Positions 30,382 through 49,333 of a DNA stretch of 64,000 nt are shown here, piece after piece (the first letter of the stretch is position 1; each line of letters opens with the position of its first letter). The notes under the pieces are model-generated. The model made no database searches, had not been told where the DNA came from, and saw only the letters and a list, made by a program, of their open reading frames with translations. Made by a program: the position numbers and the translations under genes. This stretch comes from Gimesia aquarii (GTDB taxonomy: Bacteria; Planctomycetota; Planctomycetia; Planctomycetales; Planctomycetaceae), in contig NZ_CP037422.1 in assembly GCF_007748175.1 (NCBI RefSeq), positions 3,106,020 through 3,170,019 of the forward strand, written 5' to 3'.

Positions 30382-30732
30382 CTATTTTGAATCTTTTTTA
30401 TCTTCTTCATAAAGTCCTTGAATTGCACTTCGACGGACTTTCAGGCGCGAATTATCATCTATTTTTATTACCACTTCCTGTTCGTTTTCAGCAATGCTGG
30501 CAATCGTACCAATGATTCCCCCAATGGTCACGACACGATCATTTTTCTTCAATTCGCCTAATGCCTTCTCGCGACGAGCTCGTTCTTTTTGCTGCGGACG
30601 AAACATGATCAAGTAAAAGAAGATCACAATGGCAATGATGGGTAAAAACTGAATGATTTGGGGAGGAGCAGGGGCATCTTTGGCAGGTGCTTCTTCGGCC
30701 AATAAATATAACGTTGTAAGTAATAAATTCAT
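30382..30732 (-). CDS. yajC: YajC, preprotein translocase accessory subunit
   Basis: YajC associates with SecDF in the translocon. I chose the ATG at 30732; a TTG five codons upstream is possible. The 116-residue protein has a short N-terminal hydrophobic start, then the classic YajC pattern: a single membrane helix (about 28-47), FRPQQKERARREKAL, and GELKKNDRVVTIGGIIGTIASI. A basic C-terminal region with DDNSRLKVRRSAIQ follows. It lies directly upstream of secDF and downstream of tgt, an order seen in many bacteria. Confidence 0.95.
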   Translation of the reverse strand: MNLLLTTLYLLAEEAPAKDAPAPPQIIQFLPIIAIVIFFYLIMFRPQQKERARREKALGELKKNDRVVTIGGIIGTIASIAENEQEVVIKIDDNSRLKVRRSAIQGLYEEDKKDSK

Positions 30733-30922
30733 TTCGTTCTCGTCCAAGGCTGCAAATGAATCTCCTTAAAGTAATATGAATTAAACACTTAAGGAAACAC
30801 ATATTTAAACATACAAGTAAAGACATATGTCATTTTGAAGCATGCTCATCCAACAACTGAGCCAAAATCGGCCCAAACCTAAATAATTTCAGGAGTTATC
30901 AAGCAATGTTGCAAGCTGTATC

Positions 30923-32041
30923 TTAGAAAGATGCGTTCCAACGGGCAAGGTGAACCGCCCTAAACTCCTCAACTTGATCATTGAGTATTGCCTGTCGCAA
31001 ATCTCGCAGCAATTTTTGATAAAAGGCAATATTATGGAGGGAGATCAAAATTGGCCCCAGCATCTCTCGTGACATAAATAAATGCCGCAAATAAGCGCGG
31101 CTATAATTCTGTGATCCTGGTGAGTCACATTCAGGGTCCAAAGGGCTCGGATCTCTCGCATGTTTTTGATTGCGTAAATTGACGCGTCCCTGGCTGGTAA
31201 ATGCCATTCCATTCCGCCCATTTCGAGTAGGCATCACACAATCAAATATATCGACACCACGTATAATTGCCTCAATCAGATCAGAAGGACGTCCCACCCC
31301 CATCAGATAACGAGGTTTTTCGACGGGCAACATCGGAGTCGTAAAATCAAGCGTAGAATACATATCTTCAGGTTTCTCTCCTACACTCAAGCCTCCAATG
31401 GCATAGCCAGGAAATTCCAGAGGAAGCAATCCAGAAGCAGATCTTTCCCGCATCATCTGGTCAGTTCCTCCTTGCACAATCCCAAACAGGGCCTGATCAT
31501 CACGTTTCTGTGCATCTCGGCATCTTGCTGCCCAATTTGTGGTTCGGTCTACGGCCTCTAACATTTTTTCAGAAGGAACATCATGCGGGGGACATTCATC
31601 AAGACACATAATACAATCTGCACCGAGTTGCTCTTGTATCTTCACCGCTTTTTCCGGTGACAATTCAAATAAACTACCATCAATATGTGAACGAAACACA
31701 ACTTGGTCATCATCCATTTTTGTAAGTTGGGCCAGACTGAAGACCTGGAAGCCACCACTGTCCGTCAGAATTGGCCCATCCCAGTTCATAAACTCGTGAA
31801 GCCCTCCCATCTCTTCAACAATCTCTGCCCCGGGACGTAATGCCAAATGGTAAGTATTTGCTAATACCTGCTGGGTTCCGACCTGTTTTAGTTGCTCTGG
31901 CAATAAGCCTTTTACCGATGCCAAAGTCCCGACAGGCATAAAAGCTGGAGTATCCACAATTCCGTGGGGCGTATGCCAGCGTCCCACTCGTGCTGAAGTT
32001 TTTGAATCGCTATGAATCAGTTCAAAATGAAAATGGGACAC
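30923..32041 (-). CDS. tgt: tRNA-guanine transglycosylase with a degenerate zinc site
   Basis: Tgt exchanges guanine 34 in GUN-anticodon tRNAs for the queuosine precursor preQ1. The 372-residue TIM-barrel protein has the catalytic region [13 protein letters not shown] (D94), [24 protein letters not shown], and the nucleophile D267 in [13 protein letters not shown]. In typical bacterial Tgt the zinc site is a C-x-C-x-x-C motif plus a later His; here it reads C305-D-S307-P-G-S310, so only the first cysteine and H336 (SLHN) remain. The bases read clearly (TGT GAC TCA CCA GGA TCA). The start is GTG. Neighbours yajC and secDF are the common partners. Confidence 0.95.
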
Positions 32042-36355: not shown

Positions 36356-38050
36356 CTATCTTTCTGGACGACGAAGCTCATAATACCGACTTAATACTCT
36401 GACACGAAAAATCTGATAAGCAGTAATCGTTCCCAAGATTGCCAAAACCACAGCATAAATCACGGGATATTGCCACAACTCTGTTAATTCTGGTCTAAGA
36501 AATACAAGTATGGCGAAAGCAAGCATCGAAAGCGTGGTAGTGAAAAAGACTAATCTGACATAGAAGAACAGTCCGGCTGCAACGATCAGCATCGGATACC
36601 CAATTAACAAGATGCCAATGGGAGAATCAACCAGAATCAATAAGCCGGTCAATAAAGAAACATCTGCTGCAGCCCAGCAAAAACGGACTTTTCCCTTATT
36701 TTTCAGATGATCTAATCCCCATTGAAAGAACAGAGCTAAAATTCCCCAAAGACAAAAAATTGTCATAATCTTGAAATGATAATTGAAATCGGTTCCCTGT
36801 GTTGAATATACCGTTTGAATAATTCCAGCAGACAAAACGATAGCAGACAACCGAGAGGCTAAAGCTGGTTGCCTGCGAAACCAGCGCTGAAATTTCTGTT
36901 TGAATCCGGCTGGTTGAGCATGAATTGGTTCCCCAGCAATAAAACGCTCCAATTCATCGGCTAATTCTGATGCAGTTTGATAACGTAATTCCGGATCTTT
37001 CTCTAAACATTTCAGACAGATCAATTCCAATTGATGAGGAATCTTGGCATTTAGAGTGTGGGGTAGAGGGGGTTCACCTTCAATTACATACACTAAAGAA
37101 TCTAATGGGGTATTCTGTTTGAAAGGAGAGACGTTTGTCAAAAGTTCATAAAGTATAATGCCTAGACAAAAAATATCACTACGAGCAGAAATGTTGGCTA
37201 ACTGACCCGCAGCCTGTTCTGGTGACATATAACTGGGAGTTCCTACAATCATGCCACTTTGTGTTTGAACTTCACTGGCAGAGTTTTCCTGTAGCAGATC
37301 AAATACCTTTGCAAGCCCAAAATCGGTTACATATGCCGCACCGTTCTCATCAATTAATATATTAGATGGCTTTAAATCACGATGAATGATCTCTTTGGAA
37401 TGTAGATAGTGAACTGCGCGAGAAACCTGCTGCATCAATGATGCAATCTGATAAAATTGATCGTGTGACGTTTCCGGTTTTAGTTTTATGTTTGCTAATG
37501 AGTTTCCTGATATATAGTCCATTGTAAAATAATGCTGTCCCAAATATTGCCCGACTTCGTGGATGGCAACAATATTGGAATGCTGTAGTCTACCCGCTGC
37601 TTGTGCTTCCAGATAAAAACGGCGTACTTCCTCTTCCGATGCAAACTGATGACTTAAAATGGTCTTCAAGGCAACGATACGGTTTAAATCTTTCTGACGT
37701 GCTTTGTAAACGACCCCCATGCCACCGCGACCAAGTTCTTCCAGGAGTTCATATTTCCCGAACTCGGTGATCAGTTGAGGGACAGACGGTTTCAGATTCG
37801 GACTGGAAAATAAGAGCGTGGGGTCTTCTGGCTCTGAAGTTTGATTTTGTTGACTGGAATTTTCGCTATCGGGAGCTAAACACTCCAGTGAATCCAGGCA
37901 GGCCATTAACTTTTTTAATTCCGGATTGACTGCCTGTAGACTATGACAACTTTCCTGATCTTTGGCTTGTAAATATTCGAGGTATTGATTCAATACCTCA
38001 ACTAACTGTTCCGATTGATTTTCTTGCTCATTTGCCACGGGATCTAACAT
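36356..38050 (-). CDS. Ser/Thr protein kinase with a polytopic membrane tail, paired with an ECF sigma factor
   Basis: I chose the ATG at 38050; a TTG ten codons upstream is less likely. The 564-residue protein has an N-terminal helical segment (about 1-90), a Hanks-type kinase domain (about 100-370) with GRGGMGVVYKAR, K129 in VALKTI, HRDLKPSNIL, TDFGLAK and GTPSYMSPEQAAG, then a C-terminal part with about six membrane segments (about 400-555). The kinase is complete. The ECF-type sigma gene lies 48 nt upstream on the same strand. In planctomycetes such kinase-sigma pairs form a known ECF class where the kinase is presumed to control the sigma factor; that link is inferred here. Confidence 0.93.
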   Translation of the reverse strand: MLDPVANEQENQSEQLVEVLNQYLEYLQAKDQESCHSLQAVNPELKKLMACLDSLECLAPDSENSSQQNQTSEPEDPTLLFSSPNLKPSVPQLITEFGKYELLEELGRGGMGVVYKARQKDLNRIVALKTILSHQFASEEEVRRFYLEAQAAGRLQHSNIVAIHEVGQYLGQHYFTMDYISGNSLANIKLKPETSHDQFYQIASLMQQVSRAVHYLHSKEIIHRDLKPSNILIDENGAAYVTDFGLAKVFDLLQENSASEVQTQSGMIVGTPSYMSPEQAAGQLANISARSDIFCLGIILYELLTNVSPFKQNTPLDSLVYVIEGEPPLPHTLNAKIPHQLELICLKCLEKDPELRYQTASELADELERFIAGEPIHAQPAGFKQKFQRWFRRQPALASRLSAIVLSAGIIQTVYSTQGTDFNYHFKIMTIFCLWGILALFFQWGLDHLKNKGKVRFCWAAADVSLLTGLLILVDSPIGILLIGYPMLIVAAGLFFYVRLVFFTTTLSMLAFAILVFLRPELTELWQYPVIYAVVLAILGTITAYQIFRVRVLSRYYELRRPER

Positions 38051-38098
38051 TCTCTCTATTTCAAAACTAGCCTGTAGCAATTCAGGTGAGTAAAAAGT

Positions 38099-38710
38099 TT
38101 AGACGCTTTCCAAATGTTCTTGCAGCTGATTTAGTGCACGTAGCCAAAGCATTTGGACCGCTCCCGGGCTACGATTCATTCTTTCAGCGACTTGCTTAAA
38201 TGAAAGTCTCTGCAAATTTCGTAACATGATTACTTCCTGATAATCTGTGGGAAGCTGTGACACTGCATCAGCCATCAAAAGTTCCTGCTCACGATTTAAC
38301 AGAATTCGACTTGGAGTTTCTGTTTCGTCTTTCAACTCCCATCCATGTTGGGCTGAGTCATCAGAATTCCCACCAGCCTGATCAATCGAAACTTCTCGAC
38401 TGACATTGCGTTTAGCGGCTCCCTGGTATTTTCGGGCGAAGTCCAGTGTATTGTGGTTCAAGATGCCTCTTAACCAACCCAGCCATTCGGCCTCTGTTTG
38501 TCCTTTAAAACGCGCAAGTCCCTGATGTGCTTCCAATAATGTTTGTTGTACTAAATCGGAAGCATCAAATTTTGTATGCATCCAACCTTCTATTTGAGCA
38601 CGTGCGATCAAAGAAACATAAGCACGGCATTTTTGCAGCAATTCATTTTCTGCAGAGCAATCTCCTGATCTTGCTCGCTGAATCAAAACTTCAATTTGTG
38701 ATTGAGCCAT
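38099..38710 (-). CDS. ECF-type RNA polymerase sigma factor (planctomycete kinase-linked type)
   Basis: The 203-residue protein directs RNA polymerase to a specific promoter set. It has a sigma-2 region (about 25-100) with FDASDLVQQTLLEAH and EWLGWLRGILNH, and a sigma-4 helix-turn-helix region (about 150-200) with LPTDYQEVIMLRNLQRLSFKQVAERM and SPGAVQMLWLRAL. An extra polar segment (about 105-135) joins them. No anti-sigma gene is present; instead the membrane kinase gene follows by 48 nt, which fits the ECF class controlled by Ser/Thr kinases. The start is ATG at 38710. Confidence 0.93.
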   Translation of the reverse strand: MAQSQIEVLIQRARSGDCSAENELLQKCRAYVSLIARAQIEGWMHTKFDASDLVQQTLLEAHQGLARFKGQTEAEWLGWLRGILNHNTLDFARKYQGAAKRNVSREVSIDQAGGNSDDSAQHGWELKDETETPSRILLNREQELLMADAVSQLPTDYQEVIMLRNLQRLSFKQVAERMNRSPGAVQMLWLRALNQLQEHLESV

Positions 38711-38783: not shown

Positions 38784-39635
38784 TTATCGTTTCTTGTACT
38801 TGCTACTGGCCTCTTTGAGCAATGCACGTTCTTGATCGGTCAAACTTGCTTCGCCTTCCCGGCTGATCTTTTCAAGAATCGCATCCACTTTTTCATCTAA
38901 TCTGGCTTTTGACAAATTAGTATCAGGCTCGGAGTAGACACGTAACTTACTCTTTCTGACGGAGCGTTTCAATTTTAATTGATTCCATTTGGTATTGAAA
39001 TTACTCGACAAGTTCCAGCCAAAGTACTTATAAGCAATGCCAAATGCAGCACCACCTAAGTGTGCAACATGAGCAACACCATCTCCCCCTGGATTAAGAA
39101 CCCCAAAGACATCAACCAATGCGTAAAGCACAGCTAACCAGCGCAATTCAATGGGTAAAATAAACATCAATAACACGGTCATGCGAGGAAAATACATGGC
39201 TGTCAGAAACACAACAGCCATCACACCACCAGAGGCTCCAATGACGGGTGCGCCGCTGATGGCAATATGACAAATACCACTGATCACAACGCCAATCAAA
39301 TAAAACACCAAGAACTCACGTGATCCCAAGATGGGTTCAATTGAGCGTCCAAACATCCAGAGCACAAACATATTAAAGAAAATATGCCCCAAACCACTCA
39401 GAGAGTGACAGAAGCCATAAGTGACAAATCGCCAGATTTGGAAGGAAGCAAAAATAGACTCTCGGTCTAAAGCCAGAAATTCTATAACACGAGGAGAATT
39501 CCATTCTACAAGAAACACAACGACATTAGCGATAATCAAATACTTGATGGCCCAGCCACCAGAAGCCATTCTGAAAGAATTGAAACTTCCCCCACCACTT
39601 TCATGTCGCAGATAATCCCGGCTCTCAATCCCCAT
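38784..39635 (-). CDS. Rhomboid-family intramembrane serine protease
   Basis: Rhomboids cut membrane proteins within or near their membrane segments. The 283-residue protein has six predicted membrane helices, the catalytic S135 in GASGG and catalytic H192 in VAHLGGAAFG, with the HIFFNMFVLWMFG helix before them. Both catalytic residues are present. After residue 215 comes a basic cytosolic region and a C-terminal tail (250-283) containing VDAILEKIS, ASLTDQER and SSKYKKR, which resembles the tail seen on some bacterial rhomboids (DUF6576-like, from memory). The same tail pattern ends the M50 protease at 48338-49333. The start is ATG; the sigma factor gene is next downstream on this strand. Confidence 0.93.
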   Translation of the reverse strand: MGIESRDYLRHESGGGSFNSFRMASGGWAIKYLIIANVVVFLVEWNSPRVIEFLALDRESIFASFQIWRFVTYGFCHSLSGLGHIFFNMFVLWMFGRSIEPILGSREFLVFYLIGVVISGICHIAISGAPVIGASGGVMAVVFLTAMYFPRMTVLLMFILPIELRWLAVLYALVDVFGVLNPGGDGVAHVAHLGGAAFGIAYKYFGWNLSSNFNTKWNQLKLKRSVRKSKLRVYSEPDTNLSKARLDEKVDAILEKISREGEASLTDQERALLKEASSKYKKR

Positions 39636-39745
39636 TGTCGAATCGATCCTTGCTTGACATTACTTAATTCACAGCGTTCCGAGAGCAAACGCCCACCTTC
39701 CATGCTATTGAGGAGCAGCCATTCAGACAACTCACAGGATGATTA

Positions 39746-40621
39746 TCATTTTTTTGTTGGAAGCTGCTTAGTAAGTTCACTGACTTCTTGTATCAACGAC
39801 TGTTGTGTTTTATAGACTCTTAACAGATCGCGTCTCAGCTTATCGGTTTCCTGAAATTCCTGGTTTCGCATTTGTTCTTCTACTTCCAACCCTGCAACCA
39901 GTCCTATTCTTAACTCGACCGGAAGGGCTTGTTCCTGAGGTGCGTTCTCAGAACCAATCAGTTCGCTTATCCTAGCATCCAGCCGTTCTTTTGCAGCCAC
40001 TAATAATCGATTTAAATCTTGTATGCGATCTTGTTTTCGCTTGAGTTGCTGCTCGCGTTCTACTAAATCATCACGCAAGGTTACCAATGTAGAAATATAG
40101 TTGGGAGGTACGAGTGCCCTTAATCGCCAACCACCATTCTTCCAAGTCGTTACTTCACCTGGTTGAGGAGGAGCGACGGGAATGAGTTGCGCCCCATTGG
40201 CTTCCAAAGCACTCACTCGAAATGCTCCCACGTATGCAACCCCACTGGGCTTGCTCTGATCTGGCTGGAATGCAAAAATGATCGGCTGTGCAGCAGGATT
40301 ATCACCTTGTTGGGCACTGCCTAATCCCTGATTTCCACCGATATTGACCTGAATCGCCCCTGTCTGCTGATTGGCGACTGTCACGTTGGCATCCCAGTAG
40401 CGATCCCAGCCGAGCATCAAACGAGTTAATTCACCTCGAAGTGTTTTGCTTTCTTCTTCTTTAGCTTCAATTTCTACTTTATTCTTTTGAATTTGCTCTG
40501 CGTTTTTTTCAACCGCTTTCAACCAACTGCCGCGGACATCCAGCATCTTTGATGTCAACAATACAGCTCCTACAGCCGTGGCAGCAATGAGCCAAACAAA
40601 CACTACTCCAGATTTATGCAT
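39746..40621 (-). CDS. Single-pass membrane protein with coiled coils, unknown function
   Basis: The 291-residue protein has an N-terminal membrane segment (about 4-24), then a coiled-coil region (about 32-70, rich in Lys/Glu/Gln with heptad-like Leu/Ile), a middle beta-rich domain (about 78-190, with Gln/Gly-rich GGNQGLGSAQQGD), and a second pair of coiled coils (about 190-290) ending in TKQLPTKK. I do not recognise the family. The layout suggests an inner-membrane anchored protein projecting a coiled-coil hairpin into the periplasm, as in secretion or envelope-shaping proteins, but nothing decides this. The start is the ATG at 40621; 110 nt separate it from the rhomboid gene downstream. Confidence 0.8.
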   Translation of the reverse strand: MHKSGVVFVWLIAATAVGAVLLTSKMLDVRGSWLKAVEKNAEQIQKNKVEIEAKEEESKTLRGELTRLMLGWDRYWDANVTVANQQTGAIQVNIGGNQGLGSAQQGDNPAAQPIIFAFQPDQSKPSGVAYVGAFRVSALEANGAQLIPVAPPQPGEVTTWKNGGWRLRALVPPNYISTLVTLRDDLVEREQQLKRKQDRIQDLNRLLVAAKERLDARISELIGSENAPQEQALPVELRIGLVAGLEVEEQMRNQEFQETDKLRRDLLRVYKTQQSLIQEVSELTKQLPTKK

Positions 40622-41187
40622 TTTCTTGAAACCTTGTTGAAAGCAAACGAGTGATTAATGCCTCGTGGTATTATCTTGCGAATGAAACTTTTACTTTTTT
40701 CAATAGTATTTTCTCTGTTTCAACACAAGACTATCTAAAGAATTGAAAACGAAAGCCATCTTGTCTATTACATCGACCTGATGCAGCAATAAGAACGAAA
40801 ATAAATCGTGTAGAATTAATTATTCTTGTGATCGGAGATTAATAAAATCACAGTAAAAAAAGAGCACAAAAAACCAATCATATCATTATTTAATGATAAG
40901 TCCCTCTACAAATCGGGGTCAAGGAGAAACCGAGATTATACACCTTATCCTTACTGGATAATCGGCAAAATCGATAAATATGAATCATAAAACTGGTCCA
41001 AATACAGACTCTGAACAGTATCCCATTGAAAACATTGCCTGCAGTTGATTATCGATTCTAATTGAAAAGCAAGATTTTCTACACTTCGATTGAGTGCAAT
41101 TTCTGGTGAGATTTCTTATAAAATACTCAGAATATACTCAGGTTTGGTAGATATCAGACCATTTTTAAGTTCATCAAGGAAACAACA
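40622..41187. other. Divergent intergenic stretch, no gene recognised
   Basis: It separates two divergent genes and is AT-rich. A small palindrome (ATCATTA-TT-TAATGAT at about 40882-40897) could be an operator. I see no frame with a ribosome site and no RNA gene. Confidence 0.45.
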
Positions 41188-41634
41188 ATGTCAACGGTTA
41201 AAGTAAAACGATCTGACCTCAAACCAGGAGAAGTTTTATGCAGCTATTGTACAGCGCGCTGTTGTCGCTATTTTGCCTTACCGATCGAAACTCCTGAAAA
41301 CTGGGAAGACTTTGATCACATGCGTTGGTACATCATGCATGGTCACTGTGCAATTTTTGTAGATGAGGATTCCTGGTTCTTAATGGTTTATGGAGATTGT
41401 AAATATCTTCTCCCCGATCATCGATGTGGGAACTACGAAGACCGACCAAAGATCTGTCGCTCTTACACGACAGATGATTGTGAATATGACAATGACGGAA
41501 CTTATGATCGTTTATTTGAAACTCCAGAGCAAATTTGGGAATATGCTCATGCAGTACTGCCTCCGCGTAAGAAGAAACAAAAAAAATCTCAAGAAAGTGT
41601 GCACTCTCAAAAGCTTCCCGTTGTCCATGTTTAA
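41188..41634 (+). CDS. YkgJ-type cysteine-cluster protein
   Basis: The 148-residue soluble protein has a cysteine pattern of the YkgJ/Fe-S or zinc cluster family: C-S-Y-C-T-A-R-C-C (C18, C21, C25, C26), GDCKYLLPDHRCGNYEDRP and CRSYTTDDC. Such proteins are thought to bind a metal or Fe-S cluster in the cytoplasm; their biochemical role is poorly known. The C-terminal 25 residues are Lys-rich. The ATG at 41188 has AAGGA upstream. The hisS gene starts 62 nt after the stop on the same strand, so the two may share a transcript. Confidence 0.9.
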   Translation: MSTVKVKRSDLKPGEVLCSYCTARCCRYFALPIETPENWEDFDHMRWYIMHGHCAIFVDEDSWFLMVYGDCKYLLPDHRCGNYEDRPKICRSYTTDDCEYDNDGTYDRLFETPEQIWEYAHAVLPPRKKKQKKSQESVHSQKLPVVHV

Positions 41635-41695
41635 GAGTTGTTCCGTAACGTTTCCTGATACACTAAGTAAACACGATCAAAGTCTGTAAATAACT

Positions 41696-43018
41696 GTGAA
41701 AAAAGATCTAATTGAACCACGGACACTCAATGGGTTTCGGGACTATCTTCCAGCTGCCATGATTCCGAGAGAGCAGCTAATTGAAACGGCAAAATCAGTG
41801 TATCGAAGTTATGGCTTTCGTCCTATTGATACACCTGCGCTGGAATATAAAGAAATTCTCGCAGGAAAGGGAGGCGCAGAATCAGACAAACAGATGTTCC
41901 AATTTCAACAGGGAAAGCGCGATGTAGCGATGCGTTTCGACCTGACGGTCCCTTTCGCCCGCTTTGCTGCACAAAATATTAATGAATTAGGAATCCCCTT
42001 TAAACGCTATCATGTCGGAACAGTCTGGCGGGGCGAGCGACCGCAAAAAGGACGTTATCGTGAATTTGTGCAATGTGACTTCGATACGATCGGGACAACT
42101 TCTAACTCTGCTGACATTGAAACCTTATTCATTATCCATGATCTGATGGTTCGAATCGGTTTTTCGGATTTCACGATCCGTATTAACAACCGTATGATTT
42201 TAAATGGCCTGCTTGAAACTCTGAAGCTTGAATCACAATCGACAGAAATCCTAAGAGCACTCGACAAGCTTCCAAAAATCGGTTCTGACGCTGTTATGAT
42301 TGAAATGAGAGAGCAGGGTAATCTCACTCAAGAACAAGCTGAAAAAATAATTTCCCTCACCACAGTTCAGGGTTCGACTGCCGAAATCCTGAATTCTCTG
42401 GAACAGCAACTTTCCGGGAACGCCTGTGGAGAGCAGGGAGTGCAATATCTTCGCGAATTATTTCAATCGGTAGAACGCGCAGGTATTTCTAATCAACGAG
42501 TTGTCTTAGATCCTTCGATTGCCAGAGGCCTGGATTATTACACAGGCACAATCTATGAGACATTTCTGAATCAATTACCGGAAATCGGAAGTGTTTGCTC
42601 CGGCGGACGCTACGATAATCTCGCTGAGCGTTTCACAACGCAAGAGCTACCTGGTGTCGGAGCCAGCCTGGGTCTAGACCGTTTATTAGCGGCAATGCAG
42701 GAGCTCAAACTATTAGACGAGATTTCCACTCCCGCTCCCATTTTATTCACTCAAATGGACCAGAAATATACTTCTGAGTACTTGCGTCTGGCACGTGAAC
42801 TGCGACTGAATGGTTTGAATGTTGAAGTCTATCCCGATACGAAAGCAATCAAAAAACAGTTCAAGTATGCGAATCGCCATGGATTCAAAATCGTAATTAC
42901 CGCGGGAGCGAATGAATTCGATAATCAAGAATGGCAAGTGAAAGAGATGCTGACAGGAACTCAAACCGCTGTGAAAGAAGACGATCTCTTAGAATTCGTC
43001 ACCCAACTTCTGTCATAA
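41696..43018 (+). CDS. hisS: Histidyl-tRNA synthetase
   Basis: This class II synthetase charges tRNA-His. The 440-residue protein has the class II motifs: motif 1 region GFRPIDTPALEYKE, FDLTVPFARF, motif 2 GTVWRGERPQKGRYREF, the histidine-binding stretches LDPSIARGLDYYTG and SGGRYDNL, and motif 3 PGVGASLGLDRL. The C-terminal anticodon-binding domain (about 340-440) follows. Length fits bacterial HisRS. It starts at GTG (41696). It could only be confused with HisZ, but HisZ lacks the conserved histidine-binding and anticodon domains seen here. Confidence 0.97.
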   Translation: MKKDLIEPRTLNGFRDYLPAAMIPREQLIETAKSVYRSYGFRPIDTPALEYKEILAGKGGAESDKQMFQFQQGKRDVAMRFDLTVPFARFAAQNINELGIPFKRYHVGTVWRGERPQKGRYREFVQCDFDTIGTTSNSADIETLFIIHDLMVRIGFSDFTIRINNRMILNGLLETLKLESQSTEILRALDKLPKIGSDAVMIEMREQGNLTQEQAEKIISLTTVQGSTAEILNSLEQQLSGNACGEQGVQYLRELFQSVERAGISNQRVVLDPSIARGLDYYTGTIYETFLNQLPEIGSVCSGGRYDNLAERFTTQELPGVGASLGLDRLLAAMQELKLLDEISTPAPILFTQMDQKYTSEYLRLARELRLNGLNVEVYPDTKAIKKQFKYANRHGFKIVITAGANEFDNQEWQVKEMLTGTQTAVKEDDLLEFVTQLLS

Positions 43019-43146
43019 ATAAAAGCTCTCATTTTTAAAGAAGTCGAACTCTTAATTCCCAGGCCACTATAGACCTTTACACCATTCCTCTATACAATAA
43101 TCATACGATCAGATACCTGGCTTCATATAGAGGAGATCTGAGTTAT

Positions 43147-43662
43147 ATGGTCCTACGCAGAAACCATTATGACGCCGCTTTTGAAGAATACTTACGTGCG
43201 TCAAAGGCTCCATATGTAGCCGTTGACGAAAAACGCAGAGCATTGGTTCAAGACTCATCGATTAAGTCTCTAGATTTTATTGTTTATGCGAACCAGGGGC
43301 CAAATCTATTAATCGACGTCAAAGGGAGAACCGAAATTTTTGCAGATCATAATAAAAAACGCCGCTGGGAAAACTGGGCCACAATTGAAGACATTCGGGG
43401 GCTTCAACAATGGCAGCAACTTTTTGGTGAGGGTTTTCGTTCTGGTTTTGTTTTTGCTTATGAGCTCCCTATTGATTCTTTTTCCAATAATCTGGAAAGA
43501 CTTTTTGCTTTTAAAGAACGTCTTTATGCCTTCTATCTAGTTATGATAGATGAATATTGCCTAAAAATGAGACCGCGATCACGTAGCTGGCAGACTGTTT
43601 TTCTTCATCAGCAGGACTTTCACGAAGTGCGACAACCTGTAGATGCGCTCATTCGAGTCTGA
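43147..43662 (+). CDS. HYExAFE-family protein, PD-(D/E)XK nuclease-like
   Basis: The 171-residue protein begins with RRNHYDAAFEEYLR, matching the HYExAFE pattern used to name a planctomycete-centred family. The next strands carry LDFIVY and LLIDVKGR, which has the Asp-x-Lys spacing of PD-(D/E)XK nuclease folds (acidic residue, then D-V-K), and a conserved helix with QWQQLFG. This makes a metal-dependent nuclease or a nuclease-fold binding protein plausible, but activity is not shown. It stands alone 128 nt after hisS on the same strand. The ATG has GGAG upstream at a normal distance. Not a restriction gene by context, since no methylase is near. Confidence 0.85.
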   Translation: MVLRRNHYDAAFEEYLRASKAPYVAVDEKRRALVQDSSIKSLDFIVYANQGPNLLIDVKGRTEIFADHNKKRRWENWATIEDIRGLQQWQQLFGEGFRSGFVFAYELPIDSFSNNLERLFAFKERLYAFYLVMIDEYCLKMRPRSRSWQTVFLHQQDFHEVRQPVDALIRV

Positions 43663-43730
43663 AAATCTTATCATTTTTCAGGATAATGCTTTAAGAATCA
43701 TGAAACACTCTGAATCAGCTTTGTCAGCTT

Positions 43731-43768
43731 ATTTATGATATCTCAGTTTATTTATGATATCTCAGTTT
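43731..43768. repeat. Exact tandem duplication of a 19-bp unit
   Basis: The unit ATTTATGATATCTCAGTTT occurs twice in direct succession, with no mismatch, in the space between the HYExAFE gene and the small membrane protein gene. It may be a recent slippage duplication. Confidence 0.95.
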
Positions 43769-43883
43769 TCACTGTGGATTCTTACAAGAATGGTCTTTTC
43801 CTAATGCAGTTCTCATGAAAGACTGATACAATTACTAAGTTGAAAAGTATTCATAATGCTTTGACCTGTCGATTCCAACGATC

Positions 43884-44093
43884 ATGCTGAGACTCCATAA
43901 CATGTTGAAATTATTGCCTGTTTTGTGCTCCGGAACATTCTTATTTTCCGTAACCACAGCCCTTGCGCAAGAAGAAGAGCGAAAAAGTGGTATCGTTCAA
44001 CAATCTCAGACATCCATCTTTGAGTATCTTCTTATCGCGGTCTTATTTGGGTTAGCATTATTTGCCATCTGCCGAACTAGCCACCGTTCTTGA
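43884..44093 (+). CDS. Small exported membrane protein, unknown function
   Basis: The 69-residue product has an N-terminal signal-like stretch (about 7-28, ending LAQ), a short polar segment (EEERKSG to QTS), and one membrane helix (about 46-63) ending in a short basic tail. The frame has an ATG at 43884 and another at 43902; the ribosome site is weak. I do not recognise a family. Its 3' end is 43 nt before the ketoacyl synthase start on the same strand, so the two are probably co-transcribed. Its reality rests on the signal-plus-helix pattern and position. Confidence 0.6.
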   Translation: MLRLHNMLKLLPVLCSGTFLFSVTTALAQEEERKSGIVQQSQTSIFEYLLIAVLFGLALFAICRTSHRS

Positions 44094-44136
44094 TTACCTC
44101 ATATTCCTTTATCAACAACACGTTGTTTCAGTTCTA

Positions 44137-45420
44137 ATGCGACCAAAGTCATCGGATATTGAGCGTTCTCCCCGTAAGGTCGTGATTACAGGTATCGGTT
44201 TAATTACTCCCTATGGAGTTGGACGGGAATCATCTTGGCAAAAACTTCTCACAGGTCACTCCTCAACACGTCTGCTAGATGATTTATCAAAGCAGCTTAA
44301 CCAACCAGTCGTCGGTGGCGTCATTCCGGATCGCCAACTCTCATCCACTTCAGTTTCAAGTAAGCACCCGTTTCTAAAGGAACCTTCCATTACCTTGGCA
44401 CTAAGGGCCACAGAAGAAGCAATCCTTGACGCTGGCTTAAATCTGGATGAGATGTCTAAAGATTCAATCGGGTGTGTCATCGGGTCTAGCAAAGGGGGGA
44501 TGGCCAGTTTTGCACAAGCATCTGAATTAAGACGCATGGCCCCAGCAACGGAACAGCAAGTCCCGGATTCATTCTGGTTGCAGTGCTTTCCCAATGCAGC
44601 CAGCCACTCTGTCGCAGCTCACTTTGATCTGCAAGGGGCCGCCTTAACACCTGTTTCGGCATGTGCTACCGGGGTTTCGAGTGTGATGAGAGCAGCTGAA
44701 TTAATACGTGATGGTGTCTGCGATACGGTTTTTGCTGGAAGTGCAGATGCTTCCCTGTTACCGACAGTATTAGGTTCATTTCAGCGTATGGGAGTCTTAG
44801 CCAAAGACATTCAAAGACCCAAAGAAGCTTGTAAGCCCTATGATTGTAGACGAAATGGATTTGTCGTCGGCGAAGGTGCAGGAATCCTCGTACTGGAATC
44901 GCTGGAACATGCGTTAAATCGAAACGTCATTCCTTATGCTGAATGGTTAACCGGAACTTGTGGTTCCGACTCGACCCATTTGATGCAATTTGACCCTGCA
45001 GCGGAAAGCCTCGCAAAACTGATTTCTAGACTGCTACGACAAACCAGCGTATCTCCATCTGAAATCGACTACATCAACTTGCATGGTACAGGAACTCAGA
45101 TCAACGACCTCTATGAAACACGTGCGCTTCATACTGCGATGGGTTCTTTCTCTAAGAGGATTAGTTGTTCCAGCCTTAAAGGCGGAATGGGACATTTACT
45201 GGGGGCTGCGGGAAGTGTGGAGTTAGGATTCACATTGTTAGCAATGCGTGACAATCTCGTCCCTCCAACAATTAATTTAAAAGAACCTGATCCACGGTGT
45301 GATCTGAATTATACACCATTCACAGCTGAGTCTAAAGAAATTAAGACCGCGCTGAAACTCTCCTTCGGTTTCGGAGGACATCTGGTTGCAGGCATCGTAA
45401 GGAAATGGGATCATTCCTAA
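44137..45420 (+). CDS. Beta-ketoacyl-ACP synthase II-like condensing enzyme
   Basis: KAS II enzymes extend acyl-ACP chains with malonyl-ACP. I chose the ATG at 44137, 25 codons into the open frame, since RKVVITGIGLITPYGVG then starts about residue 13. The 427-residue thiolase-fold protein has the active-site C176 in SACATGVSS, the histidines in NLHGTGTQIND and KGGMGHLLGAAG, and the C-terminal LSFGFGGHLVAG. All catalytic residues are present. No ACP or ketoreductase gene is adjacent, so it may not be the housekeeping FabF; planctomycetes often carry extra condensing enzymes. Its product pathway is unknown. Confidence 0.92.
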   Translation: MRPKSSDIERSPRKVVITGIGLITPYGVGRESSWQKLLTGHSSTRLLDDLSKQLNQPVVGGVIPDRQLSSTSVSSKHPFLKEPSITLALRATEEAILDAGLNLDEMSKDSIGCVIGSSKGGMASFAQASELRRMAPATEQQVPDSFWLQCFPNAASHSVAAHFDLQGAALTPVSACATGVSSVMRAAELIRDGVCDTVFAGSADASLLPTVLGSFQRMGVLAKDIQRPKEACKPYDCRRNGFVVGEGAGILVLESLEHALNRNVIPYAEWLTGTCGSDSTHLMQFDPAAESLAKLISRLLRQTSVSPSEIDYINLHGTGTQINDLYETRALHTAMGSFSKRISCSSLKGGMGHLLGAAGSVELGFTLLAMRDNLVPPTINLKEPDPRCDLNYTPFTAESKEIKTALKLSFGFGGHLVAGIVRKWDHS

Positions 45421-45429
45421 CCACGCTGG

Positions 45430-46059
45430 CTATAGTGCAAATCGAGCTGATTTCACAAATTTTCGAAACTCTTTCTCAACTTTCATTAACTGGTCACGCG
45501 GACCTGTTAATTTGAGATAAAAGTCTCTGGGACTACGGGGAATCGCGACTCCAATCATTCTCATTCCCGATTTAGTAGCAGACTCTAAACCTATCCCAGA
45601 TTCAAATGTGCCTCTTAAATCCAGCCAGATCACATCCGTATTGTCCACTCGAATTGTTTCCTGTGTCGGAGTTTCTCCAGGAGGTAACTGAAACTGACCT
45701 CTCCACCTCTGTAAATTGGCATCAATACCTCCCCCAACTGAAGAAAGCGTTAATTTGACTTGGTCCCCCGCCTTGGGGATTCTAAAACTGGCAGAGATTA
45801 AGCCTTGTTGAGCGGGAGATAAGGGAACTTCTTCCCATCCCTCAGGCACGTGAAATACAATTCCGTCGTATTTTTTCTTTCCAGACACTTGTGTCTTTGG
45901 CATGCTCGGTTTTGAATGATTCAAGTGAAGCGGTTCGGCTTCGGGAAGCGGCAAATCAAAGTTTGATTCAGTGTCATCGGTATGACAACCGTAAAAACCT
46001 AATATCATAGATAGAAGAAAAAATGCAACAAATCGAACCTGTCGAAAAATCTGATTCAC
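45430..46059 (-). CDS. Lipoprotein of unknown function
   Basis: The 209-residue protein starts at a GTG preceded by AGGGGG at 7 nt. The N-terminal hydrophobic segment ends in FYGC followed by HTDD, a plausible lipobox, so lipid anchoring is likely. The mature part has a beta-rich pattern with FHVPEGWEEVPL and VIWLDLRGTF and a helix near the C-terminus. I recall similar unannotated proteins in planctomycetes but no named family. The gene converges on the ketoacyl synthase with only 9 nt between stops. Its function is open. Confidence 0.8.
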   Translation of the reverse strand: MNQIFRQVRFVAFFLLSMILGFYGCHTDDTESNFDLPLPEAEPLHLNHSKPSMPKTQVSGKKKYDGIVFHVPEGWEEVPLSPAQQGLISASFRIPKAGDQVKLTLSSVGGGIDANLQRWRGQFQLPPGETPTQETIRVDNTDVIWLDLRGTFESGIGLESATKSGMRMIGVAIPRSPRDFYLKLTGPRDQLMKVEKEFRKFVKSARFAL

Positions 46060-46124
46060 TTTAAGCCCCCTACATATGACGGAGAATACAATTTGATGAA
46101 TTCCGTTAATAGGAGTTTAGTCTA

Positions 46125-47783
46125 TCAATTGAGGCACAGTTCATCCAGACTTGAAGTATCATCGTTATACTTTTGTGAAAGGCGGATGATCTCCTCCCGA
46201 ATCTCAAAATAGGCCTCAATTACATCTGGGTCCCATTGAAACCCTTTACCTTGTTTGAAAATCGATTCAAGTTTTTCCAGAGGCATTCCATTTCGGTAAG
46301 GGCGGTCACTGCCCATTGCATCATAAGCATCCGCGACAGCAATGATACGCGCCATCAACGGAATGTCATTACCTTTCAATTTGTCTGGATATCCAAGTCC
46401 ATCGATTTGCTCATGATGATTTCGAACACCTGGCAAAATATTCTGTAATTTTTTGATCCCTGATAAGATTTTGTAACCAATCATGGGATGTTTTTGAATT
46501 TGAGCGAATTCTTTATCTGTCAGTTTCCCTTCCTTACGAAGAATTCCATCATCAACTCCAATTTTACCGATATCGTGCAATAAACCAGAGAGATAGATAT
46601 CCTGCAAAAATTCACCAGTGTATCCCAAACGTTTCGCTAATTGCTGTGCAATTAAAGCAACTCGCTCACTATGACCTCTCGTATAAGGATCTTTGGCATC
46701 CAATGTTGAAATGAAGGATTTAACAAAGCTCAACGTCAGCTCTTCCTGTTGAGCATAGAGATCGACGTTCCTCAAGTGGGTTCCTAAAAACGATGCAATC
46801 GAATTTAAAAGACTGGCCTGGATCGTCCCATATTCATCACTTTTGATCAAATTACAACTTAAAATCCAACCGTATGAGTTGGTACCATCTGAAATGGGTA
46901 CTAAAACCAGGTTTTTGAGTTCTGGAAACTCAAGTGAAAGCAATGAACTTTCTACCTGATTGATCACCAATGGTTGATTCCAATTATGACCGTCAAACTG
47001 AGCAACAAGGCGCGCTAAATTTAACTCATCAAAATCGACTTTACTGTCTGCCATAAATTGAGACGTGCACTCTTGCCCTTCAAACCAGATCACGTTGGTC
47101 TCTGCTTCGATCAAATTTCCGATTCGATCCAAACATAGTGTTCCCAGTTGTTCTGGACTTTCAGATATTTTTAAATGCTGTGCCACTTCGTGTAACAGGC
47201 TGATTTCCTCGAATGTCTCATCCAGACATTCTGACAGATTATCGACTTCCTCATTCAAATCACCAAGCTGTTGTTCCTCTTCAATATGAAGGATCGCAAG
47301 GCTTAGCAGAGCATGTAACGATTTAATGTCCAGGACCCTTTGCAATTCGATCCAGGAATCTAATTCTTCGATAGCCCATTCTCTTTCAACAGCCGCTAAT
47401 ACCATTTCAGTTAGCTTGCGTTTTTCTTTAGAAAAGACAAAACCAGCGGCTGTAATTTTATGAAAATCATCTTCAATCAATGGAAAAATAAAATGAGAAA
47501 CTCCATTCGTACTTTCAGTCAGCGTTAACCCATCCACATTTTTGATTTCGTTCAAAACATCTTCAGGAAAGAAAGGGAGAGCCTGGGTGCTTGTTTTGTC
47601 CAAAATCATCCCCGTTTTTGAATCAAAACAGAACATCGTCAGACCGGTTAGCTCTGAAATTCGCTTCATATTGCTGATAGCTAGCTCAATCTTTGCGTCG
47701 ATTTGCAAGTCGAGCTCCCAGACACCACTATGTTTGCTGAAGTTAGATAACTTCTTTAATGAATCAGTCGTTCCTAAAACCAT
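46125..47783 (-). CDS. GAF and HD-GYP protein, probable cyclic-di-GMP phosphodiesterase
   Basis: HD-GYP enzymes hydrolyse cyclic di-GMP. The 552-residue protein has an N-terminal half with a long helical linker (about 180-210) and a GAF-like domain (about 205-340), then the HD-GYP domain (about 355-530): GHSERVALIAQQL, LLHDIGKIGVDDGIL, HPMIGYKIL, HHEQIDGLGYPDKL and IAVADAYDAM. The HD and HHExxDGxGYP signatures are complete, so activity is expected. There are no membrane segments, so it is cytoplasmic. The start is ATG at 47783. No diguanylate cyclase is in the window. Confidence 0.93.
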   Translation of the reverse strand: MVLGTTDSLKKLSNFSKHSGVWELDLQIDAKIELAISNMKRISELTGLTMFCFDSKTGMILDKTSTQALPFFPEDVLNEIKNVDGLTLTESTNGVSHFIFPLIEDDFHKITAAGFVFSKEKRKLTEMVLAAVEREWAIEELDSWIELQRVLDIKSLHALLSLAILHIEEEQQLGDLNEEVDNLSECLDETFEEISLLHEVAQHLKISESPEQLGTLCLDRIGNLIEAETNVIWFEGQECTSQFMADSKVDFDELNLARLVAQFDGHNWNQPLVINQVESSLLSLEFPELKNLVLVPISDGTNSYGWILSCNLIKSDEYGTIQASLLNSIASFLGTHLRNVDLYAQQEELTLSFVKSFISTLDAKDPYTRGHSERVALIAQQLAKRLGYTGEFLQDIYLSGLLHDIGKIGVDDGILRKEGKLTDKEFAQIQKHPMIGYKILSGIKKLQNILPGVRNHHEQIDGLGYPDKLKGNDIPLMARIIAVADAYDAMGSDRPYRNGMPLEKLESIFKQGKGFQWDPDVIEAYFEIREEIIRLSQKYNDDTSSLDELCLN

Positions 47784-48337
47784 GAGGCTACTCTCTACTT
47801 TCTAAAGGAATTTTCCCAATAAAAAGTTAGTTCGTAGTCTTGAGTTCGCAAACAAGATTTCTCAATCTGCACTTAAATAACTCATTCTTAACCCAAATTA
47901 GCCATTTTTTTGCCCCCAGACACATTGAGTTTGCCCACAAGTTCATAGAAAAAACATCGTGAACATCGAGCTAAGTATCTGAATTTAAATCAAGATAACA
48001 CCATTGTTGTGCTTTGTGGCTTTATTCATTCCAGGATCAGCGACACATATAAAGTTTTACCATAAAGACACTTACAGCGTTAAGATCATAACCATCAAGT
48101 ATATGAATTGTTAAATTGGAAGCGGGACGGTGTTCACTACAAACTTAGCATCAAAATGAGAGTCTGCCCCATGAAAGTCCGTTTATATGGATTGTTAGAA
48201 ATAATCCAAATTAACAGCCGGAAGTGTAATAGATTTCTCAAACACCAGAATTGATGGGTAAACATGTCGAAACATCCAATATTGATAACTGGAAATCAAT
48301 CTAGGATGGCAGGTCAGAGATATTGAGAACTCTGATT
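47784..48337. other. Intergenic stretch, no gene recognised
   Basis: About 550 nt between the HD-GYP start and the M50 protease stop. I looked for tRNA, short frames with ribosome sites and hairpins, and found nothing convincing. It holds the HD-GYP promoter region. Confidence 0.45.
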
Positions 48338-49333
48338 TTAAGGATCGGAATCAGTCTTGCGATATCGAGCGCTCACTTGGTTTAACTGCTGTCTCTCTTT
48401 CGGAGTCAATGACTCCAATCCAAATTCATGTACTTTATGAAGTAATGAATCAAGTTGCTTTTCAGCGTTCAAGTTTTTTTCTCGTTCACGAAGTTCTTTC
48501 TGAAGCTTTCTTTTTTTCCGCCACTGCTGAAAAAATCCAATCTTTTTCTCCCCCAGTTGACCGCTAGATCGCTCTAAACTTGTATAACCCTGCGAAAAAT
48601 CATAACCAAAGGTGGAATCATCGTAGGAGTCCTGATTGGATACTGTTGAAAACTCTAACAAGTTAAGCATCAACAATAATGCACTAAAAAAGACGACCCA
48701 CACAGCCAAGCTGCAAAGGCCGATTACCATTCCGAGCCCGCCGATCCAGAAGCTCACGTTAAATAGGACCATATGGACCACTGTCTCATCAAAGCGGCGT
48801 GAGAGAATGATCTGTAAAATTTTTCCTCCATCTAGAGGAAGCATAGGGATCAAATTAATCAATAAAAGAAGCCAATTAATATTAAATATCATCAACAGGA
48901 CCGCCTGACCGAGATTATTATCTAGATCAATGCCAGGCAATTGAAAGGGATTTAAAGATTGTGAAAGTTCACCTGACCAGATCACTGCGGGAATTGTAAT
49001 TGCACAGAGCAGCAGATTAACGATCGGACCACCCAAAATTGTCAGAATTTGTGCAGTAGTAGCATGAGCAGGATTACAGGAAACAAGCCCACCTAACGGC
49101 CATAATATAATCTGATCGCCTTCTCCACCTGTCATTCGGCAGGCCACGACGTGACCCATCTCATGTAGAAAGACACTCAAAAAAAGAATGCTGAATAACG
49201 CAATTCCCAATCCCAATGAGTAATGAACCCAAAAAACGAGAAGTAAAACAGGTAGAAAAATACTGACACGGACCTGAGTTAGAAACCAAGTCCCAATGGG
49301 AAATGACCAATGTAATGGGTTCGACCGACTCAT
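48338..49333 (-). CDS. Site-2 protease family (M50) intramembrane metalloprotease
   Basis: M50 proteases cut membrane proteins with a zinc site inside the bilayer. The 331-residue protein has the zinc motif HEMGH (H57, E58, H61) in the second helix and the third ligand Asp in IPMLPLDGGKIL, with five or six membrane helices. No PDZ or CBS domain is seen; the branch is the plain one. After residue 225 comes a basic cytosolic region (RKKRKLQKELREREKN) and a C-terminal tail (294-331) with LDSLLHKVH, ESLTPKER and SARYRKT, strongly like the tail of the rhomboid at 38784-39635. The start is ATG at 49333. Confidence 0.93.
   Translation of the reverse strand: MSRSNPLHWSFPIGTWFLTQVRVSIFLPVLLLVFWVHYSLGLGIALFSILFLSVFLHEMGHVVACRMTGGEGDQIILWPLGGLVSCNPAHATTAQILTILGGPIVNLLLCAITIPAVIWSGELSQSLNPFQLPGIDLDNNLGQAVLLMIFNINWLLLLINLIPMLPLDGGKILQIILSRRFDETVVHMVLFNVSFWIGGLGMVIGLCSLAVWVVFFSALLLMLNLLEFSTVSNQDSYDDSTFGYDFSQGYTSLERSSGQLGEKKIGFFQQWRKKRKLQKELREREKNLNAEKQLDSLLHKVHEFGLESLTPKERQQLNQVSARYRKTDSDP

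Follow-up and report, generated by a model that had tools for sequence, protein, structure and literature searches.

Rhomboids and site-2 proteases (S2Ps) evolved separately and are usually studied apart, and the roles of bacterial rhomboids are mostly unknown. The window analysed here, by which we mean the whole stretch of 64,000 nucleotides, encodes one protease of each clan, and a sequence-only reading had proposed that both end in the same cytosolic tail, likened to DUF6576, and that this tail might point to a shared partner or a common pathway. Are the two tails related, and what might one tail do on two such different proteases?

The rhomboid combines a rhomboid (S54) domain with an HxxxN motif at residues 84–88 (H84, N88) and a Ser-His dyad made up of Ser135, within GASG, and His192, and the best structural matches of its model are to GlpG. 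The M50 protein carries HEMGH at residue 57 and PLDGG at 166, that is, the HExxH and DG metal-ligand motifs of RseP- and SpoIVFB-type S2Ps, on which we know of no DUF6576-like tail. Pfam SHOCT had no match listed up to E = 1 on either protein, and no SHOCT-rhomboid link was found in the literature searched. The rhomboid gene is flanked by an ECF sigma factor gene and a kinase gene.

Table 1. Features of the window, in window coordinates
Feature	Position	Strand	Profile match or remark
secDF fusion	27309..30287	-	PF02355, PF22599, PF21760
yajC	30382..30747	-	PF02699, 87.9 bits at 30418-30651 (contig 3136437-3136670)
tgt, queuine tRNA-ribosyltransferase	30923..32041	-	PF01702, 511 bits
ECF sigma factor gene	38099..38710
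Rhomboid intramembrane serine protease, 283 aa	38784..39635	-	PF01694, 90.8 bits, 1.2e-25
DUF6576 tail of rhomboid, residues 239-278	38802..38921	-	PF20216, 34.0 bits
M50 site-2-type protease, 331 aa	48338..49333	-	PF02163, 50.8 bits (1.8e-13); PF13398, 27.4 bits
DUF6576 tail of M50, residues 285-322	48368..48481	-	PF20216, 30.4 bits
M50 cytosolic motif FGYDFSQGYTSLE, residues 242-254	48572..48610	-	between membrane part and tail

The proposed likeness of rhomboid residues 250–283 (38787-38888, minus strand) to M50 residues 294–331 (48341-48454, minus strand) was correct in its residues, its coordinates and its count of 13 identities over 33 ungapped positions, and BLASTP gives the pair E = 4e-07 in a single comparison. 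The family it named was also the right one, both tails scoring above the curated PF20216 cut-off of 27.3 bits, and these are the only two matches above it in the whole 7.2-Mb genome, which has four rhomboid matches and six M50 genes (read by us from eight match rows), just one of the latter with the tail. A chance or generic helical resemblance might be suspected, given that the stretch is short, charged and helical and that the cytosolic ends of both membrane proteins are basic, but the two cytosolic regions align at a best ungapped BLOSUM62 score of 72, whereas 5000 shuffles averaged 25.8, peaked at 50 and never reached it. An HMM of 132 rhomboid tails, none of them from a locus that was sampled or labelled as Planctomycetota (two, L218 and L266, from records labelled just 'bacterium'), matched 70 of 71 tailed M50 proteins and none of 1420 tail-shuffled copies; run against 17938 ORFs, which were every ORF of at least 60 aa in all loci collected with none removed, it matched 278 distinct rhomboid frames, 70 M50 frames and seven others, these being single-TM proteins. 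An earlier control of 6282 'other ORFs' was weak in that ORFs matching the mixed tail profile had been taken out beforehand; its one match (L233) was a rhomboid split across two frames. In addition, 16 chosen tails from several phyla show the same pattern, the conserved D, L, K, G, L, E and L of the DUF6576 hairpin, with D10, L13, K15, G20, L24 and L32 invariant and E28 present in over 90%. The chance that the likeness is accidental or generic is thus negligible, and the two tails are homologous versions of one shared small tail.

The tail is predicted to be a flexibly tethered helical hairpin. In the rhomboid, helices are predicted at 239–260 and 267–282, and the AF2 model folds the tail as a hairpin with a mean pLDDT of 97 in two 10-residue blocks (251–270) behind a linker with pLDDT below 50; a single-sequence model of the M50 tail places helices at 260–304 and 311–327. 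In the rhomboid alignment (A3) the tail has positions conserved to the same degree as the catalytic residues, a comparison that leans towards the tail because members were partly chosen by the tail pattern, as does the M50 profile because it was built from tailed proteins. The profile search against the PDB gave only four weak RcsB matches (E about 0.2), so that a relative of known structure was rejected for the hairpin, and the name DUF6576 was not found in the literature searched.

Within Planctomycetota the carriers are almost entirely proteases of the two clans. Of 209 tailed frames, 138 are rhomboids, 69 are M50 proteins and two match both body profiles, a count that omits two frames without a body match (L004 and L061) and sequences with identical ends; the classes come from HMMs that we built from tailed proteins with GxSG or HExxH, and were checked by Pfam on 126 proteins and on 20 singly. 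Those 126 carry Rhomboid (84), M50 (32) and M50B (14) domains, with no other recurring Pfam domain besides rhomboid look-alikes, so that a generic domain of many proteins was rejected within this phylum, and the profile search suggested by the sequence-only reading does recover mainly intramembrane proteases of both clans. The loci read were mostly the best-scoring matches, and rare architectures with weak tails may therefore be missed. No viral contigs carrying M50 relatives were found. Both kinds of protease occur together in 33 of 33 relatives with at least two classified copies and, among 158 genomes sampled, in 47 of the 49 with at least two; of the two exceptions, one has a pair of tailed M50s but no rhomboid, and the other, judged by the matches fetched, a pair of rhomboids but no M50. 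Pairing is not obligatory, since 8 of 59 relatives have a single match (of six classified, five rhomboid and one M50).

Elsewhere DUF6576 is found widely at the end of rhomboids (Bacteroidota, Verrucomicrobiota, Gemmatimonadota and others), with the same C-terminal hairpin pattern D-x-x-L-x-K...G...L-T-x-x-E...L. The S2P carrier and the tgt-yajC-secD cluster, in contrast, belong to Planctomycetota as far as loci were read: outside the phylum no M50 carrier was found among them, the carriers being rhomboids or a single-TM protein in which the tail makes up most of the cytosolic part. In the Bacteroidota sampled, one match per genome is the usual number. There 290 genomes have a match, and 29 loci picked from the best matches plus seven others were read; the copies seen in these loci and in Verrucomicrobiota belong to rhomboids or to single-TM proteins. 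A tailed rhomboid outside Planctomycetota usually has other neighbours, secD lying near it in five Prevotellaceae only among the non-planctomycete loci, and a search there for a third conserved gene gave lineage-specific neighbours only, named by eye, such as a phosphoglycerate-kinase-like gene, an ispG-like gene or a second rhomboid.

Tail and catalysis do not always travel together. By alignment (one MAFFT alignment per clan, ten M50 rows checked by eye) canonical residues are missing from 26 of the 138 tailed rhomboids and 9 of the 67 tailed M50s, and a search by motif alone finds GxS missing from 25 rhomboids and HExxH from 12 M50s, of which three run off the end of their locus. In one genome (G408) both partners are non-canonical and both have the tail. 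Because members with dead active sites keep it, the tail does not merely serve catalysis.

What surrounds the proteases bears on where they might act. In the window, tgt, yajC (the sole YajC match in the genome) and secDF lie on the same strand as both proteases, at a distance of 7 kb to the rhomboid gene and 16 kb to the M50 gene. In several other families the M50 and rhomboid genes are adjacent and closely spaced, and tgt, yajC and secD stand alongside in all 13 such loci with enough flank. Distances to YajC were tabulated for 27 of 59 genomes, the rest having YajC and tails on different contigs or, in G357, no YajC match, and G399, with a YajC fragment and one tail on a single contig, being omitted; in unfetched genus members rhomboid and M50 were assigned by frame length. 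Within the genus, YajC and the rhomboid are 8.1–8.3 kb apart in all 14 genomes tabulated. Among the 13 genomes outside it, four have a tailed gene no more than 20 kb from YajC, one has its tailed genes 48–74 kb away, and in eight all tailed genes are more than 390 kb away; in G422 the M50 gene is 11.9 kb and the rhomboid 4.4 Mb from YajC. Gene order suggests a Sec link of the tailed proteases, one that is lost in many Planctomycetia. The order tgt-yajC-secD is itself widespread, so insertion next to it could be incidental.

Our preferred reading, to which we assign a probability of roughly 0.45, is that a docking hairpin brings the rhomboid and the S2P, whether catalytically active or dead, to one shared partner in membrane-protein quality control, with the Sec/YajC-SecDF site as its probable location. 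DUF6576, a small cytosolic hairpin joined to the last transmembrane helix by a flexible linker, would act as a docking module outside both active sites, and with one tailed rhomboid and one tailed S2P per genome in many Planctomycetota, both would reach the same partner. From the gene neighbourhood, this would most likely sit at the Sec insertion site (YajC-SecDF) or be a cytosolic or AAA+ factor acting there, where the two proteases may jointly clear or pass on faulty membrane segments, leftover signal peptides and orphan subunits; members without catalysis would persist as adaptors. A more specific version, a possible if doubtful one, is a dual-clan complex of rhomboid and S2P in Planctomycetota, held on YajC-SecDF by the shared hairpin, in which the S2P of several lineages would be a pseudo-S2P adaptor, like rhomboid pseudoproteases.

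Helical hairpins often oligomerise, and DUF6576 could instead be a dimerisation module through which rhomboid and S2P bind each other in a hetero-complex, or each forms homodimers. The regular pairing of the two kinds and the adjacent genes speak for this, as does a rhomboid-M50 tail likeness of 0.448 within genomes against 0.416 between them (0 of 5000 permutations, 46 genomes, phylogeny uncorrected). Nevertheless, we consider it unlikely: hetero-pairing with an S2P is improbable as the original role, because Bacteroidota genomes mostly have one match, and the copies read in them and in Verrucomicrobiota are on rhomboids or single-TM proteins. A role of the tail as a signal for turnover or FtsH recognition, setting protein amount and implying no shared pathway, is quite unlikely; it would suit a tail that in 201 of 209 frames stops no more than 12 residues short of the C-terminus and that sits on a flexible linker, but a predicted folded hairpin with positions conserved like catalytic residues (in an alignment partly selected by tail) is more than a degron normally needs, and on the single-TM protein the tail accounts for the bulk of the cytosolic region.

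S2P enzymes usually need a prior first cut, and the rhomboid might supply it in a two-step regulated proteolysis that frees, for example, an anti-sigma-bound factor, the ECF sigma gene lying 73 bp downstream of the rhomboid and being kept in another genus (L073). We hold this to be very unlikely. The window's ECF and kinase genes have no match near the rhomboid in L072 and L074, no anti-sigma domain was found in the neighbouring window proteins scanned, and, while the window pair itself has canonical motifs, the competence of both partners expected of an S1P-S2P pair does not extend across the family. A plain two-step pathway is disfavoured because catalytic residues are gone from many tailed members in each clan, in G408 from both partners at once, and because outside Planctomycetota the tail was read only on rhomboids or a single-TM protein. 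Of the earlier suggestion, then, a shared partner or common pathway gains from co-occurrence, adjacent genes and the tgt-yajC-secD(F) neighbourhood, whereas a simple two-enzyme cascade becomes less likely.

A docking role has partial parallels. Bacillus subtilis YqgP, also a bacterial rhomboid, is both a protease and a protease-independent adaptor of FtsH, a role in membrane-protein quality control that requires a cytosolic extramembrane domain; unlike the proteins here it relies on a metal-binding domain at its N-terminus, its C-terminal domain, for which TPR repeats are predicted, lies outside the cell, and the available part of the paper mentions neither a DUF6576-like tail nor an S2P partner (PMC7231995). 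Of a YqgP-like FtsH adaptor, the proteins here show one adaptor-like trait, retention of the tail on dead members. Shigella GlpG and Rhom7 remove orphan membrane subunits, a task like that proposed, but no shared tail is mentioned in the part of the paper available, where Rhom7 needed neither its seventh TM nor its C-terminal domain to cut an artificial substrate (PMC7232013). A shared, exchangeable docking tail tied to Sec accessory genes would offer a route to the physiological partner of bacterial rhomboids, and dead S2Ps that keep it would carry the pseudoprotease idea from rhomboids over to the S2P clan. Since nearly all Bacteroidota genomes sampled have the tail (290 of 296), its ligand would matter well beyond Planctomycetota. 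The M50 protein has one further cytosolic feature, the motif FGYDFSQGYTSLE, and a regular expression finds motifs of this type in some tailed M50 proteins and in four dead ones.

The sequence-only reading had claimed that the rhomboid and the M50 (site-2-type, S2P) protease end in alike tails, and this is borne out: the 13 identities over 33 positions of the ungapped C-terminal alignment are exact, and the similarity score of the two tails is 72, with 5000 shuffles reaching 50 at most. Both proteins match PF20216 (DUF6576) above the curated cut-off, and in the host genome, a single contig of 7.2 Mb with four rhomboid matches and six M50 genes (split matches counted once), they are the only ones to do so, lying 9.6 kb apart. 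An HMM made from 132 rhomboid tails, taken from loci neither sampled nor labelled as Planctomycetota (two records are labelled only "bacterium"), recovers 70 of 71 tailed M50 proteins with a median E of 3.8e-11 and none of 1420 copies whose C-termini had been shuffled. Across 17938 ORFs of at least 60 aa, drawn from every locus with none removed, its distinct matches comprise 278 rhomboids, 70 M50 proteins and 7 frames with neither body, the last being single-TM proteins. In 46 genomes, the likeness of rhomboid to M50 tails between genomes (0.416) approaches that among rhomboid tails (0.456) and among M50 tails (0.435), so tails of the two kinds are about as alike as tails within each kind. 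Sixteen chosen tails share the pattern D-x-x-L-x-K-x(4)-G-x-x-x-L-x-x-x-[ED]-x-x-x-L, in which the middle L is mostly preceded by S and followed by T or S.

Coordinates of the tailed proteases, the Sec-related genes of the window and single-TM DUF6576 proteins
Feature	Position	Strand	Remark
Rhomboid	38784-39635	minus	
M50 protease	48338-49333	minus	
secDF	27309-30287	strand of both proteases	
YajC	30418-30651	strand of both proteases	only one in the genome; between secDF and tgt
tgt	30923-32041	strand of both proteases	
Single-TM DUF6576 protein	L402:4713-4964		Bacteroidota; frame of ~80-95 aa
Single-TM DUF6576 protein	L403:4589-4846		Bacteroidota; frame of ~80-95 aa
Single-TM DUF6576 protein	L404:4681-4965		Bacteroidota; frame of ~80-95 aa

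Six-frame searches find DUF6576 in 354 of 392 planctomycete genomes, in all 59 relatives and, for two phyla each defined by one starting genome, in 290 of 296 genomes (an Algoriphagus, Bacteroidota) and 120 of 145 (a member of the Verrucomicrobiales). Among 209 distinct tail-bearing planctomycete frames there are 138 rhomboids, 69 M50 proteins and two that match both body profiles, one of which (L034) is a rhomboid by Pfam, while the other (L195) reads from its sequence as an M50 relative. Pfam assignments for 126 proteins (the window pair and 124 of 125 random draws, the remaining draw being the window rhomboid again) gave DUF6576 in 122, Rhomboid in 84, M50 in 32 and M50B in 14, together with two rhomboid look-alikes, DUF1751 in 43 and DER1 in 5, and three isolated hits. 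Outside Planctomycetota, the 140 distinct tail frames read were 133 rhomboid-like and 7 single-TM proteins, with no M50 among them. When a profile of 14 tailed M50 proteins was run against 79 planctomycete genomes, the best 21 matches all extended into the tail, which was reached in 28 of the genomes; other matches mostly ended at about profile position 245 or before. One tailed rhomboid (L233:4836-5736) is apparently split across two reading frames, both matching the rhomboid profile.

The single-TM carriers, found in some Bacteroidota, have about 80-110 residues and a cytosolic part that is mostly DUF6576; the module can thus exist on a chain that carries no protease. Of four loci inspected with wider flanks, with Pfam names on L402, three (L402-L404) place the gene downstream of ileS, flanked by a dksA/traR-type gene and the signal peptidase II gene lspA; the fourth, L401, has other neighbours. 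Signal peptidase II is likewise an intramembrane protease.

The two tailed proteases tend to occur together. Among the 59 relatives, every genome with at least two classified copies (33 of 33) carries a tailed rhomboid and a tailed M50, and eight have a single match, of which six were classified (five rhomboid, one M50; the two not retrieved are G105 and G394). Across the whole sample of 158 genomes, both kinds are present in 47 of the 49 with at least two classified copies, the exceptions having two M50s and two rhomboids, respectively; in the other 109 a single copy was classified, in part because best matches only were fetched. Most unfetched members of the genus have two matches with frame lengths equal to those of the window pair, and in L072, L073 and L074, from other genera of the family, the stretch between the two protease genes largely retains its gene order.

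In other families the M50 and rhomboid genes are adjacent, and all 13 such loci with enough flank (L063-L066, L068-L071, L112, L166, L179, L189 and L283) are adjoined by tgt, yajC and secD, with a NUDIX gene on the opposite side in 10 (Pfam names from L064 and L066). Nine regions had been picked for two tail matches lying close together, L112, L166, L179 and L189 as single matches, and L283 (Planctomycetota bacterium KW1-S15_97) by a named scan. The same slot holds two tailed rhomboids in L067 (4126-6009) and one in L154, L164 and L200. Over 218 sequences of at least 4 kb, the window included, tgt and yajC occur in 18 each and secD in 23; Prevotellaceae with a tailed rhomboid account for five of the secD cases. 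YajC and the rhomboid lie 8.1-8.3 kb apart in all 14 genus members tabulated; among 13 tabulated genomes outside the genus, a tailed gene lies within 20 kb of YajC in four (in G422 the M50 only), at 48-74 kb in one and at more than 390 kb in eight. Directly downstream of the window rhomboid (36356-38710) are genes for a planctomycete-specific ECF sigma factor (TIGR02984) and a serine/threonine kinase, both kept in L073 and L075, and the gene immediately upstream of tgt, on its strand, encodes a type II secretion F-like membrane protein (PF00482, 32107-33213).

An AlphaFold2 model of the window rhomboid from 62 sequences (mean pLDDT 85.6; GlpG structures are its top PDB matches) has a body of six membrane helices, as read by eye, a linker at 230-238 with pLDDT below 50, and a tail predicted as a hairpin, its two helices spanning 239-260 and 267-282; the pLDDT blocks covering residues 251-270 average 97. 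The single-sequence M50 model has a poor body (mean 62) and a tail likewise of two helices, 260-304 and 311-327. Conservation in the 62-row alignment is 2.67 bits per column for the tail, 2.35 for the body and 1.08 for the linker, the tail value being biased upward because the set was partly chosen by a tail pattern.

The tail also persists on members that have lost catalytic residues. Alignment with the window proteins shows the dyad Ser or His missing from 26 of 138 rhomboids and a metal ligand or the catalytic Glu missing from 9 of 67 M50s, with HExxH replaced, by eye, by HTFGH, HAAAH, HELSR, QQFAQ or TEVVR in examples; pseudo-S2P proteins without HExxH or DG residues occur in L053, L096, L101, L072, L025, L195 and L138. 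In one genome, G408, rhomboid and M50 are both non-canonical, and both tails and largely the window gene order are kept. Two copies were fetched from each of eight Verrucomicrobiota genomes; in seven, one of the two has a low score on the rhomboid profile and no GxSx, and three such copies have Pfam scores near or below the rhomboid cut-off. A cytosolic motif, FGYDFSxGYTSLE (window 48572-48610), directly follows the membrane part in some of the tail-bearing M50s, and four M50s without catalytic residues keep it or a close form.

The DUF6576 hairpin hangs on a loose linker, can be exchanged between membrane bodies of unrelated origin, survives the loss of catalysis and also occurs on a bare membrane anchor, all of which makes a docking module its best reading. 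What the analysis demonstrates is the homology of the tails, their distribution and pairing, the order of the genes and the existence of catalytically dead members; docking, partner and task are inferred. The rhomboid/S2P pairing and the common tgt-yajC-secD(F) place suggest that the two proteases meet at the Sec insertion site, where they would serve membrane-protein quality control. Bacterial precedents are YqgP, which acts as a protease and also, independently of proteolysis, as an adaptor of FtsH (PMC7231995), and GlpG/Rhom7, by which orphan subunits are removed (PMC7232013). In the literature searched, with subscription journals mostly outside it, "DUF6576" was not found, nor was any work joining rhomboid, site-2 protease and planctomycet; the titles and abstract beginnings of the matches listed on rhomboid/YajC/SecD, M50 and pseudoprotease report no such tail on an S2P, and a term search of a 2025 rhomboid review (PMC12615303) did not find "planctomycet" or "site-2". 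This does not prove that a DUF6576-tailed S2P is absent from print.

An N-terminal MGxxDRxYxR-type peptide is found, with a loose regular expression, on 72 of 138 tailed rhomboids; the same expression flagged five of 69 M50s, of which three were accepted (starts at L066:4673, L189:3130 and L166:3087). These three genes adjoin a tailed rhomboid gene, and it looks as if both protein ends had been swapped between the neighbouring M50 and rhomboid genes.
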